A stretch of DNA of 64,000 bases from Rhizobium tropici CIAT 899 (lineage in GTDB: Bacteria > Pseudomonadota > Alphaproteobacteria > Rhizobiales > Rhizobiaceae), in NCBI RefSeq assembly GCF_000330885.1, contig NC_020059.1, positions 981,001 through 1,045,000 on the forward strand, in the 5' to 3' direction. Each line of letters begins with the position of its first letter. Position 1 is the first letter of the stretch. The position numbers were made by a program, and so were the translations under genes. The notes beneath the pieces were generated by a model, which was given only the letters and a program-made list of their open reading frames with translations, ran no database searches and was not told where the DNA came from. Of the stretch, positions 10,995 through 18,715 are shown one piece after another.

Positions 10995-11069
10995 TGGGGC
11001 GTCGCCAAGCGGTAAGGCACCGGTTTTTGGTACCGGCATTCCCAGGTTCGAATCCTGGCGCCCCAGCCA
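10995..11069 (+). tRNA. tRNA-Gln (anticodon TTG)
   Basis: A 75-base cloverleaf including the encoded CCA end. The acceptor stem pairs TGGGGCG with CGCCCCA. The D-arm contains AAGCGGTAAGG, the anticodon stem is CCGGT/ACCGG with loop TTTTGGT (anticodon TTG), and the T-arm has GGTTCGAATCC. It closely matches bacterial tRNA-Gln. No integrase or att duplication is seen beside it. Confidence 0.97.
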
Positions 11070-12384: not shown

Positions 12385-12461
12385 CGGAGTGTAGCGCAGT
12401 CTGGTAGCGCACCACGTTCGGGACGTGGGGGTCGAGTGTTCGAATCACTCCACTCCGACCA
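12385..12461 (+). tRNA. tRNA-Pro (anticodon CGG)
   Basis: A 77-base cloverleaf with encoded CCA. The acceptor CGGAGTG pairs with CACTCCG; the D-arm contains AGCGCAGTCTGGTAGCGC. The anticodon stem is CCACG/CGTGG with loop TTCGGGA (anticodon CGG), and the T-arm has GTTCGAATC. Confidence 0.97.
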
Positions 12462-15732: not shown

Positions 15733-16791
15733 TTAGCGCGTCTGGCGCCGTGCCCGGACGGCCTTTGCCAGGTCTTCCAGCGTACGCACGGAGGTCGGCC
15801 AGTCGATGCAGCCATCGGTGATGCTCTGGCCATAGACCAGCGGCTTGCCCGGCACGAGATCCTGGCGGCCTGCAACGAGATTGCTCTCCATCATCATGCC
15901 CTTGATCCGCCGGTTGCCGGCTGCAACCTGCTCGGCGACTGACGTGACGACGAGCGGCTGATTTTCCGGGTTCTTGCTGCTGTTGGCATGGCTGGCATCG
16001 ATGATGATGCGTGGCTCAAGACCCACCTTGAGAGACTGTTCTGCCGTCGACTGCACGCTGGCTGCATCATAGTTGGGCTCTTTGCCGCCGCGCAGGATGA
16101 TGTGACAGTCCTCATTGCCGCGGGTCGAGGCGATCGCAGCAAGACCTTCCTTGGTCACGGCGGGGAAGTGATGCGGCTGTGATGCCGCGACGATCGCGTC
16201 GAGCGCGATGCGCACATCGCCATTCGTGCCGTTCTTGAAACCGACAGGGCAGGAGAGGCCGGATGCCAGCTGCCGATGCACCTGGCTTTCGGTTGTCCTC
16301 GCGCCGATCGCGCCCCAGCTCACCAGATCGGAAATATATTGCGGCGTGATCGTATCGAGATATTCGCAGCCTGCCGGCAAGCCGATCTCGTTGACATCGA
16401 ACAGCAGCTTGCGGGCAATGCGCAGACCTTCTTCGATGCGGTAGCTGCCGTCGAGATGCGGGTCGTTGATCAGGCCCTTCCAGCCCACCGTCGTGCGCGG
16501 TTTCTCGAAATAGACGCGCATGATGATTTCGAGATCGTCGGCGAAGCGATCCCGCTGTTCTTTCAGTCGCGCCGCGTAATCGAGCGCTGCGGCTGGATCG
16601 TGGATGGAGCAGGGGCCGATGACGACGATCAGTCGGTCGTCTTCATCACGCAGAATGTTGTGAACGGCGTTGCGCGCGCCGGTAACGGTCGTCGTCACGG
16701 CTTCGTCGCGAGGGATTTCGTCAATGATCCGAGAGGGCGGCGTCAGCGCCGTGATCTCGACAATGCGCAAGTCGTCGGTGGAATTCAACAC
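15733..16791 (-). CDS. aroG: 3-Deoxy-7-phosphoheptulonate (DAHP) synthase, type I
   Basis: First enzyme of the shikimate pathway: PEP plus erythrose 4-phosphate gives DAHP. I start at the GTG at 16791 because AAAGGA lies nine bases upstream, giving 352 residues, close to E. coli AroG (350). The motif GPCSIHD places the metal-ligand Cys at 61, as in AroG; EKPRTTVGWKGL, LRGGKEPNYD and IIDASHANSSKNP are further active-site blocks. A longer TTG start at 16827 would run through the terminator T tract. An apparent attenuator with a Phe/Tyr-rich leader peptide lies directly upstream, which fits end-product control by aromatic amino acids. Confidence 0.96.
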   Translation of the reverse strand: MLNSTDDLRIVEITALTPPSRIIDEIPRDEAVTTTVTGARNAVHNILRDEDDRLIVVIGPCSIHDPAAALDYAARLKEQRDRFADDLEIIMRVYFEKPRTTVGWKGLINDPHLDGSYRIEEGLRIARKLLFDVNEIGLPAGCEYLDTITPQYISDLVSWGAIGARTTESQVHRQLASGLSCPVGFKNGTNGDVRIALDAIVAASQPHHFPAVTKEGLAAIASTRGNEDCHIILRGGKEPNYDAASVQSTAEQSLKVGLEPRIIIDASHANSSKNPENQPLVVTSVAEQVAAGNRRIKGMMMESNLVAGRQDLVPGKPLVYGQSITDGCIDWPTSVRTLEDLAKAVRARRQTR

Positions 16792-16825
16792 GGTATCGGT
16801 TCCTTTTGGGTCATACCGTGGCGAC

Positions 16826-16853
16826 AAAAAAGCCGCCAGGTAGACTAGCGGCT
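16826..16853 (-). terminator. Attenuator terminator in the aroG leader
   Basis: On the minus strand the arms 16853-16845 and 16839-16831 form a 9-bp stem with one G-U pair and a 5-base loop, followed by five T (16830-16826). It ends 35 bases before the aroG start. Its 5' arm can instead pair with the leader-peptide hairpin (agcgg at 16909-16905 with ccgct at 16851-16847; cggg at 16901-16898 with cccg at 16861-16858), giving an antiterminator. Confidence 0.8.
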
Positions 16854-16886
16854 GGTTCGGGTCTTTTGCTGTCGTGTCTCTTCTAA

Positions 16887-16961
16887 CTACGCACAGGCCC
16901 GCCTCCGCTGAGAGCAGCGGTACGAATAAAATCGCGAGGCATATGCGAAGGTCAAAGACAT
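16887..16961 (-). CDS. Putative aroG leader peptide, 24 aa, Phe/Tyr-rich
   Basis: Reading the minus strand from ATG 16961 gives MSLTFAYASRFYSYRCSQRR, then RACA and a stop at 16887. Phe5, Tyr7, Phe11, Tyr12 and Tyr14 cluster just before a perfect 6-bp hairpin (CCGCTG-CTCT-CAGCGG, 16920-16905) that overlaps codons 15-19. This is the layout of a transcription-attenuation leader: stalling at the aromatic codons would free the 3' half of that hairpin to block the terminator. There is no Shine-Dalgarno, and the predicted transcription start falls on the ATG, so it would be leaderless, as reported for rhizobial trpL. The peptide itself is inferred. Confidence 0.72.
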   Translation of the reverse strand: MSLTFAYASRFYSYRCSQRRRACA

Positions 16962-16967
16962 GGGTCG

Positions 16968-16996
16968 TCTCTACGATAAAAAATGCCTGATGTCGA
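16968..16996 (-). promoter_or_regulatory. Predicted promoter of the aroG leader
   Basis: On the minus strand, TCGACA (16996-16991) and TAGAGA (16973-16968) are spaced by 17 bases. The usual start point about seven bases after the -10 box coincides with the A of the leader ATG at 16961. Confidence 0.6.
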
Positions 16997-17150
16997 TGAG
17001 GGAGAATGAGAATTGAGAGGGTAGCGTCAAGAGGCCTTCATTTAGGGCCAAATGCCAGTGTACTCGGCTCACAGACCCATCTCGCCGGAGCTCCTCGGCA
17101 AGTTAATCCCTGGGCCTGCCTGAGAGAAATAACGAACCCCTGGCTCGGAA

Positions 17151-17186
17151 GGATCGGCCGGACTTCGCTGGAAGTCAGGCCGATCC
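17151..17186 (-). terminator. Stem-loop after the porin gene
   Basis: Arms 17151-17165 and 17172-17186 pair over 15 positions with a single G/A mismatch and a 6-base loop. It lies 47 bp beyond the porin stop. There is no T tract, so the terminator role is an inference. Confidence 0.55.
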
Positions 17187-17232
17187 CCATCCGATCAGGG
17201 GTCAAGTCAGATCAGATTTCGTAAACGAGCTA

Positions 17233-18294
17233 TTAGAAGCTGCGCTGGAAGCGGAGAACGCCAGCCCACTGGTCCTGATTGATGGAGTCCCAGTTGGTGT
17301 AGGAAACTTCCGGCGTGATCTGGAGGTTCTTGACCGGGTTCCACTTGACGTTCGCCGTAGCGGCGAAGATCTTCGAGTCGGTGTAAGCAACCTGAGCGTT
17401 AGCCTGCAGCTTTTCGTTGATCGGAACGGTGACGCCGCCCCAAACAGCCCAATCGCCCCAGCCGATACCCTTGGCAGGGCCGGCGCCGTTGGCGTTTGCG
17501 TACTTGTTCAGCTTGTCGCCATCGGTGTTCCAGCCGCCCATCAAGAAGGCCTTGAAGACGCCGAAGTCGGCATCGACGCGAGCCTTGATGGCGCCTTCTT
17601 CGACGATCGAGTCGTAACCGCCGACGATCTTGAAGCCGAAGTTGCCAGCCTTGTAACCAGCACCGGCAACAACGTCAGGGATGTAGTGGTTGGTGCTGTC
17701 TTCGCCGTTGACGCCCTTAGCGCCCGAACCGGAATTGCTGTCTTCAACCGAGACCACAGCCGTGAAGCCGTTGCCGGCGTCGTAGTTGTAGGTCAACTGG
17801 TTGAGTTCGTACGGGCCGTCATTGACCACGTCGTCGTTGATGACGCCGCCAGCGTAACCGATGTACGAGTTGTACTGGGAGTCAGCCTTACCGACGAGGA
17901 AACCGCCGAGGCTGATGTTTGCGAACAGCAGCTTCGTGGTGGTCGCGCCGCCATCCTGCCAGTCGAAGCGGATGACCGTGTTGGTCTTCAGCGGACCGTA
18001 TTCAGTGTCGGTTGCCGTGTCGAGGCTCAGATGAGCACGCGTGTGCCACAGCGTACCGTTATGGCTGTCCGGGTTGTAGGCATCGTACCACTTGCCTTCG
18101 GTACGGACATAACCGCCGATCTTGAGGCAGGTTTCCGAGCCCGGGATGAAGAAGTAGCCAGCGCCATATGCGTCGCAGATGCGGACGTATTCGAGCGGTT
18201 CCGGCTCGGCAGCAACGATAGCGTCGGCTGCGTGAGCGCCAGAAACTGCTGCCAGGGCAGCAGCGGAGCCGAGAAGAAGGCTCTTGATGTTCAT
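17233..18294 (-). CDS. Outer-membrane porin, RopA/Omp2b type
   Basis: General diffusion porin of the Rhizobiales porin family. I start at ATG 18294, with GGAG seven bases upstream, giving 353 residues; a longer in-frame extension to 18324 lacks a ribosome site. Residues 1-22 are a signal peptide ending in GAHA-A. A characteristic N-terminal block follows (EPLEYVRICDAYGAGYFFIPG, then TCLKIGGYVRTEG), with two Cys that may form a disulfide. Alternating beta strands end in RFQRSF with the terminal Phe that outer-membrane proteins need for assembly. Strong codon bias suggests high expression. Confidence 0.95.
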   Translation of the reverse strand: MNIKSLLLGSAAALAAVSGAHAADAIVAAEPEPLEYVRICDAYGAGYFFIPGSETCLKIGGYVRTEGKWYDAYNPDSHNGTLWHTRAHLSLDTATDTEYGPLKTNTVIRFDWQDGGATTTKLLFANISLGGFLVGKADSQYNSYIGYAGGVINDDVVNDGPYELNQLTYNYDAGNGFTAVVSVEDSNSGSGAKGVNGEDSTNHYIPDVVAGAGYKAGNFGFKIVGGYDSIVEEGAIKARVDADFGVFKAFLMGGWNTDGDKLNKYANANGAGPAKGIGWGDWAVWGGVTVPINEKLQANAQVAYTDSKIFAATANVKWNPVKNLQITPEVSYTNWDSINQDQWAGVLRFQRSF

Positions 18295-18715
18295 AAAAAC
18301 TCCAATCCAATATAGATTGGGCATAGGCTATCGCGCCGAAAATCGACGTGCCCTTACCCTATCCCTGTTTAAAACCCCGACTCGGGAGAAACGGGCCCCA
18401 CCCGCTTCTGGTCCTTATTAGAGACCAATTCCTATAAAGTTATATGATATATTTTTCTCGGAATGACTTTTTCGTGAAATTTAAGTTTCAGTTGCAGGAA
18501 AGCAACATCAGCAAATAAAGATGCTAAGTGATCCATAATGTTTGCTGCGCAATAGTCACCTTCGTGTACAATAGGTCGCTTACTCGTTCATTATTGTTTC
18601 AAAATATTGTTGCCATCCGGATATCCGAGCACAATTGCCCGCCGACGCAATTGAGGGCCACGGCCAAGAAGGCATGTCCGCGCGGTCGATGTTGCTCTTC
18701 CTGTGCGGGTTAATA
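18295..18715. other. Porin upstream region, no gene seen
   Basis: About 420 bases. The part to 18470 is the presumed porin promoter and 5' leader; a very AT-rich block at 18420-18480 (TATATGATATATTT on the plus strand) is the probable core promoter. Nearer the convergent end I see no coding sequence or stable hairpin of note. Confidence 0.5.

Follow-up and report, generated by a model that had tools for sequence, protein, structure and literature searches.

Directly upstream of aroG in Rhizobium tropici CIAT 899 lies an element that is very probably a transcription attenuator of the ribosome-mediated kind, responsive to charged tRNA-Phe and tRNA-Tyr; this reading draws on the sequence and on computed folding. 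The element was found in a stretch of 64,000 nt that we analyzed as a whole (the window), where a leader and a terminator are placed on the minus strand between a gene at 17233-18324, which we take to be porin-like, and aroG itself. Its parts are collected in Table 1.

Table 1. Features of the aroG leader region, in window coordinates.
Feature	Position	Strand	Basis or remark
aroG, class I (AroFGH-type) DAHP synthase, GTG start	15733..16791	minus	TIGR00034, 514 bits (cut-off 173.2)
-35-like hexamer TCGACA	16991..16996	minus	sequence; GTGACA/TCGACA at about the same spacing in relatives (by eye)
-10-like hexamer TAGAGA	16968..16973	minus	17-nt spacer from -35; 6 nt before ATG
Leader peptide ORF MSLTFAYASRFYSYRCSQRRRACA	16887..16961	minus	24 codons + stop; ATG at 16961
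Segment 1 CCGCTG, protector arm	16915..16920	minus	sequence, alignment structure, RNAalifold
Segment 2 CAGCGG	16905..16910	minus	partner of segment 1 or segment 3
AGGCGGG, second possible partner	16904-16898	minus	
Segment 3 AGCCGCTAG, terminator 5' arm and antiterminator partner	16845..16853	minus	terminator scan, RNAalifold
Segment 4 CTGGCGGCT (16839-16831) and U tract (T5), intrinsic terminator	16826..16839	minus	terminator scan, RNAalifold

Most of these parts had been proposed in an earlier sequence-only reading of the same DNA, made before any search. Its promoter (TCGACA, 17 nt, TAGAGA) reads back at the minus-strand positions given for it; a generic promoter scan found none and left the leader promoter unscored. 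The 24-codon frame does carry aromatic codons where they had been claimed, at F5, Y7, F11, Y12 and Y14, and it has no Trp codon. Segments 1 and 2 form a perfect 6-bp hairpin with the loop CTCT, as predicted, but its first base is the last one of codon 14, just before the codons 15-19 assigned to it. The 9-bp terminator ending in T5 was recovered by a terminator scan, with RNAalifold in agreement; the loop TCTAC lies between segments 3 and 4, and 34 nt separate the T run from the aroG GTG start at 16791. The proposed alternative pairing of the 3' half of the hairpin with the 5' arm of the terminator is possible and short (AGCGG with CCGCT, 5 bp). The 143-nt leader as a whole is more stable than dinucleotide shuffles (z = -2.95), with 1/200 equally stable.

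The sequence parts, their conservation, their tie to aroG and the effect of the stall position on computed pairing are observations; from them we infer where transcription starts, that the leader is translated and the terminator works, and that the element responds to Phe and Tyr. These steps would fit together as follows. RNA polymerase would begin at the A of the leader ATG, and the leaderless end of the RNA would take up a ribosome. When either charged tRNA-Phe or charged tRNA-Tyr is scarce, the ribosome would stall at F11/Y12, perhaps at Y14, and cover segment 1, leaving segment 2 to pair with segment 3, so that no terminator would form and aroG would be transcribed. When both charged tRNAs are plentiful, the ribosome would reach the stop codon, segment 3 would be free for segment 4, and formation of this stem would stop transcription about 34 nt short of aroG.

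The window AroG scored below the cut-off of the narrower AroG model NF006723 (537.2 vs. 568); the top match in the PDB was the Phe-sensitive enzyme of E. coli. An R. tropici AroG (L046) is 97% identical to it, which points to Rhizobium as the genus. A class II DAHP synthase is also encoded in the host genome (G000, C1:2056883-2058205), so that aroG supplies a second isozyme for entry into the pathway. The porin-like gene upstream of the leader had no match in NCBIfam. On its 3' side, at about 17130-17220 on the minus strand, we observed a long hairpin of high stability together with a site resembling a terminator, which could insulate the aroG leader from transcription of the porin-like gene. 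At the gathering threshold, Rfam (release 15) recovered only two tRNAs in the window, on its plus strand at 10995-11066 and 12385-12458.

To describe the layout in other genomes we used a rule that asks for an ORF of 18-33 codons with at least three F/Y/W codons within nine codons, followed by an intrinsic terminator. Among relatives, class I aroG was found in 30 of the 61 genomes searched, and a leader ORF and terminator precede it in 29 of the 30. The exception is a congener (G030; loci L028 / L045), whose aroG was again seen without a leader on a second fetch.

The layout extends well beyond the Rhizobiaceae, to other Alphaproteobacteria, the Burkholderiales and the Xanthomonadales, with Trp codons also present in many of these relatives. 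When the covariance model R1 was run at E ≤ 0.01 against an even draw of 385 alphaproteobacterial genomes, it matched in 13, all of them among the 14 in which an AroG protein search of the same draw found class I aroG. No match was found in the other 371 genomes, an absence that is weaker than it appears because eight candidates per genome were scored under strict filters. Twelve of the 13 matches, including that of the window, lie directly 5' of aroG; the thirteenth is 53 nt from a contig edge, and aroG of that genome starts another contig. The fourteenth genome (G398) has a leader, MNLTGHQNRFWYVFYPTPLAPVGTRSA, and a terminator ahead of aroG. All 14 aroG-bearing Alphaproteobacteria of the draw thus have the layout; 13 have it directly before the gene, the other at a contig edge.

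From the named scan the best 80 loci were kept, and 59 of these passed the rule; they come from Alphaproteobacteria, Burkholderiaceae, Oxalobacteraceae, Lysobacteraceae (Xanthomonas and its kin) and Rhodanobacteraceae. The 21 misses among the 80 include Vibrionaceae, Methylophilaceae, Zoogloeaceae and others, and also count L108, L113 and L120, which look leader-like by eye and fail the rule. L032 is matched by the RNA model and fails the peptide rule, with one F-Y pair. In a draw across the phylum, 225 of 398 genomes had a class I aroG; 23 of these are Alphaproteobacteria and 202 belong to other groups. We fetched 60 upstream regions, 20 new ones from Alphaproteobacteria and 40 from 39 genomes of the other groups. 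The rule was passed by 20/20 of the former and by 11/40 of the latter, these 40 being hand-picked for family spread from the better-scoring places listed, one of them with about 150 nt upstream. All 23 alphaproteobacterial aroG genes of the phylum draw therefore have a leader (the 20 new ones plus those of G000, G017 and G421). One genome (G669) has two class I aroG places (L155, L186), with a leader by the rule at one only. In a Chloroflexota MAG (L110), an ORF beginning MSRYFSFFSWYGYFAAGQ lies about 206 nt upstream of aroG, but no terminator acceptable to the rule follows it. When plasmids were searched with aroG and its leader as query, 80 records were returned, each at 60-80% identity; among the matches listed, none covers 80% of the query.

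To ask where a ribosome would have to stall, we folded the stretch of RNA that begins at the ATG and stops short of segment 4, placing a stalled ribosome on every codon in turn. Its assumed footprint, reaching from 18 nt before to 11 nt past the first base of the A-site codon, was kept out of pairing. In the window leader, the probability of pairing between segment 3 and the segment 2 region was 0.93 at F11, 1.00 at Y12, 0.65 at S13 and 0.56 at Y14; it was 0.54 at F5, 0.14 at Y7, and 0.00 both from codon 15 to the stop and without a ribosome. The peak stayed at codons 11-13 with all seven footprints tried, and was lowest and broadest with the smallest (15, 8), at 0.49 for F11, 0.35 for Y12 and a maximum of 0.81 for S13. 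Under this model the switch is likely to lie at codons 11-14, with F11, Y12 and Y14 as the control codons. F5 and Y7, which the sequence-only reading had listed among the Phe and Tyr codons, are probably not control codons; its attenuator reading as such is supported.

The same scan was applied to 84 distinct leader peptides selected by the rule. The best stall codon was aromatic in 60 of them, where picking codons at random would give 20.6 (sd 3.9) (Rhizobium 18/20, other Alphaproteobacteria 17/29, elsewhere 25/35). Mean values over the 84 leaders were 0.84 at aromatic codons, 0.30 at the stop codon and 0.46 without a ribosome, the aromatic-codon mean lying above the stop value in 74/84 leaders and above the no-ribosome value in 65/84. 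Outside Rhizobium, antitermination was also predicted for stalls upstream of the core, and the means were 0.67 and 0.55 without a ribosome and 0.43 and 0.34 at the stop codon. The computed switch is therefore cleanest in Rhizobium.

The core of these leaders holds Phe, Tyr and Trp codons in 47 cases, Phe and Tyr in 36 and Phe and Trp in one. The three residues interchange within the core, and both FYSY and FYWY are found in Rhizobium leaders. Over half of the leaders have codons for all three strung together just before segment 1. Phe is encoded by TTT 170 times vs. 42 for TTC. The rule itself requires aromatic residues, so that aromatic enrichment and the codon and frame counts of these rule-selected leaders arise partly by construction. 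The rule says nothing of the mix of F, Y and W, of promoter spacing or of covariance model matches, and these three do not arise by construction.

These data also bear on a narrower form of the main reading, in which the attenuator would respond to a single amino acid, Phe or Tyr, with the remaining aromatic codons as passengers. Precedent comes from the aroF operon of Corynebacterium glutamicum, which the accessible part of PMC11802643 reports to respond to Phe and not to Tyr limitation. In the window, however, the stall scan reached its maximum at Y12, and 47 of the 84 leaders carry all three aromatic residues; we consider a single signal rather unlikely, though a good deal more plausible than the alternatives discussed below.

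The pairing of segment 2 with segment 3, on which the two-signal attenuator would turn, was also considered by energy and by paired changes. In the window, the duplex was not stronger than in shuffled versions of this GC-rich sequence (p = 0.46). Over all 84 leaders, 43 reached p ≤ 0.05 (median z -1.9), and Rhizobium contributed no leader to these. In Rhizobium, where segment 3 reads CCGCT, the partner AGCGG is present in 19/20 leaders; in the 63 other leaders with CCGCC, GGCGG is present in 55 and AGCGG in 10. This argument from paired change is weakened by GGCGG occurring in 9/20 Rhizobium leaders as well, that of the window included. L103 has CCGCT with GGCGG only. Support for the pairing rests on the relatives and on the stall scan with its assumed footprint.

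Both promoter elements vary among relatives by eye, the -35 between TCGACA and GTGACA and the -10 as well, and in most alphaproteobacterial rows the ATG follows the -10 by about 6-7 nt, again by eye. At this distance the transcript would start on the A of the ATG. The window leader transcript is probably leaderless, with its start predicted from the sequence to fall on that A. A Shine-Dalgarno-like motif precedes 4/84 leaders vs. 63/71 of the aroG starts tested. The base before the leader ATG is C in 35/38 alphaproteobacterial and 33/39 other rows shown. Rows from Xanthomonadales have TTATCAAT-like boxes at a similar distance, and in Burkholderia leaders transcription appears, by eye, to start about 35 nt upstream of the leader ATG. 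A leaderless attenuator RNA has a precedent in rnTrpL of Sinorhizobium meliloti, as described in the available portions of PMC10117765 and PMC7298713.

A second alternative would be a constitutive terminator preceded by a chance ORF, the hairpin dampening aroG or ending transcription from upstream and the frame going untranslated. The 3' part of the element would be explained by a terminator alone, and terminators do occur nearby, such as the hairpin 3' of the porin-like gene; the terminator scan returned two sites vs. 0.3 expected, that of the leader and one at 17147-17133. A chance frame would not account for the way F, Y and W stand in for each other within the cores of the 84 leaders, 47 of which have all three, nor for the place of the ATG relative to the promoter, which is kept by eye, and the combination of such an ORF with a terminator is rare elsewhere. 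On both strands of the 64-kb window, the rule picked out this place alone, as two nested start codons, and in 902,598 nt of the remaining fetched loci it found 15 places, or about 0.008 per 450 nt. We regard the chance-ORF explanation as very improbable.

Conservation of the frame and stems in relatives, one of three checks named by the sequence-only reading, is seen in the alignment, with the rule and with RNAalifold. The 29 leaders from close relatives gave an alignment of 144 columns, from which RNAalifold, given no structure, recovered the same hairpin and terminator plus a 3-pair stem. In the named structure 98.2% of alignment cells pair, compared to 22-63% when the structure was slid by 1-3 columns. 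Both sides have changed in only 3/15 pairs of this Rhizobium-heavy alignment. Among 500 shuffles, none reached the observed covariation score, three had at least as many doubly changed pairs and 31 at least as many pair types, counts that overstate the support since the aligned sequences are closely related. A conserved RNA core ahead of a biosynthetic gene could also suggest a small-molecule riboswitch or a protein-binding RNA overlapped by an ORF by chance, but Rfam matched nothing in the leader (region 16780-17010) even at E ≤ 1 and RNAalifold gave two main hairpins and a 3-pair stem rather than a complex fold, leaving this idea with hardly any credibility.

The history of the leader was approached through a tree of 99 AroG proteins, L044 being left out as too short. 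Rhizobium rows cluster with those of Rhodopila (Acetobacteraceae) and of two genomes from another family (99/97), with a Pseudogemmobacter row on a long branch inside this group, and Mesorhizobium rows fall with Bradyrhizobium (100/100). The leader types follow these groups, RFY-type in Rhizobium/Rhodopila and FWYFSY...SLAAGG-type in Mesorhizobium/Bradyrhizobium, which suggests, from one gene tree, that aroG and its leader moved together. The AroG of the leaderless congener G030 sits on a long branch adjoining Rhizobium genes whose aroG does have a leader. With L032, L108, L113 and L120 labelled as having a leader, leader presence requires 10 changes on the tree vs. a shuffled mean of 17.7; at least 6 are forced and 20 of 96 inner branches are open, so gains and losses are both possible. 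On balance we lean towards an old attenuator family that has travelled with class I aroG in Alpha-, Beta- and Gammaproteobacteria and merged three end products in one leader, Rhizobium being a branch partly without the Trp codon, the window species included. If so, shortage of any aromatic amino acid would switch on the common first step.

The pheL-pheA leader of E. coli answers to Phe only and precedes a different gene. The window leader was rejected as a member of a known RNA family, Rfam having no match to it, and as a known peptide family, since four leader peptides had no match in NCBIfam or Pfam at E ≤ 10. Among the closest systems, compared by description, is the aroR leader peptide (Phe-Tyr-Phe) of C. 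glutamicum ahead of the DAHP synthase gene aroF, with attenuation upon ribosome stalling (Neshat 2014, via the accessible parts of PMC11802643 and PMC4046766). It differs in being actinobacterial and in its reported response to Phe and not Tyr, and Trp goes unmentioned in those parts. The uORFC-13-1 motif upstream of aroF in Acholeplasma, again compared by description, likewise places a predicted uORF with one or more Phe codons beside a terminator before a DAHP synthase gene; in the portion of PMC8632094 available it comprises 24 sequences, from Acholeplasma and environmental samples only, with one Phe codon as the minimum, and it includes a ribosome-binding site and an additional paired substructure. 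Rhizobial trpL/rnTrpL, before trpE(G), has a leaderless ORF at the RNA 5' end and ribosome-mediated attenuation in S. meliloti, both as predicted for the window leader, but has Trp codons, a 14-aa peptide and another gene downstream; its products act in trans (PMC7298713, PMC10117765, both in part). Excerpts of PMC11802643 present E. coli pheL-pheA as a classic attenuator reading aromatic codons, as proposed for the window leader, and describe repression of E. coli aroF and aroH by TyrR/TrpR, as do those of PMC5343134.

We found no proteobacterial aroG leader peptide in the literature that we searched: the available part of a survey of proteobacterial regulons (PMC5343134) mentions no aroG attenuator, and aroG is absent from the main text of a paper on alphaproteobacterial RNA motifs (PMC1273637) and of a survey of premature terminators (PMC2965389). 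For DAHP synthase in general, an attenuator was already known in Corynebacterium. An earlier prediction may exist in Vitreschak 2004 or Lopatovskaya 2010, and would alter the claim to priority, not the biology. This kind of attenuator is thus described for C. glutamicum and predicted for Acholeplasma, and the proteobacterial aroG family is apparently widespread and unnamed.

The usual picture, drawn from E. coli, has repressor proteins and feedback inhibition controlling entry into the aromatic pathway. Our data place a candidate translated leader before nearly every alphaproteobacterial class I aroG examined, and show it to be common in Burkholderiales and Xanthomonadales. Since the layout recurs in so many Proteobacteria, the cell probably raises its output of the enzyme when Phe or Tyr is short. 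The leader would offer a direct, testable way for a shared pathway step to sense several of its end products together.
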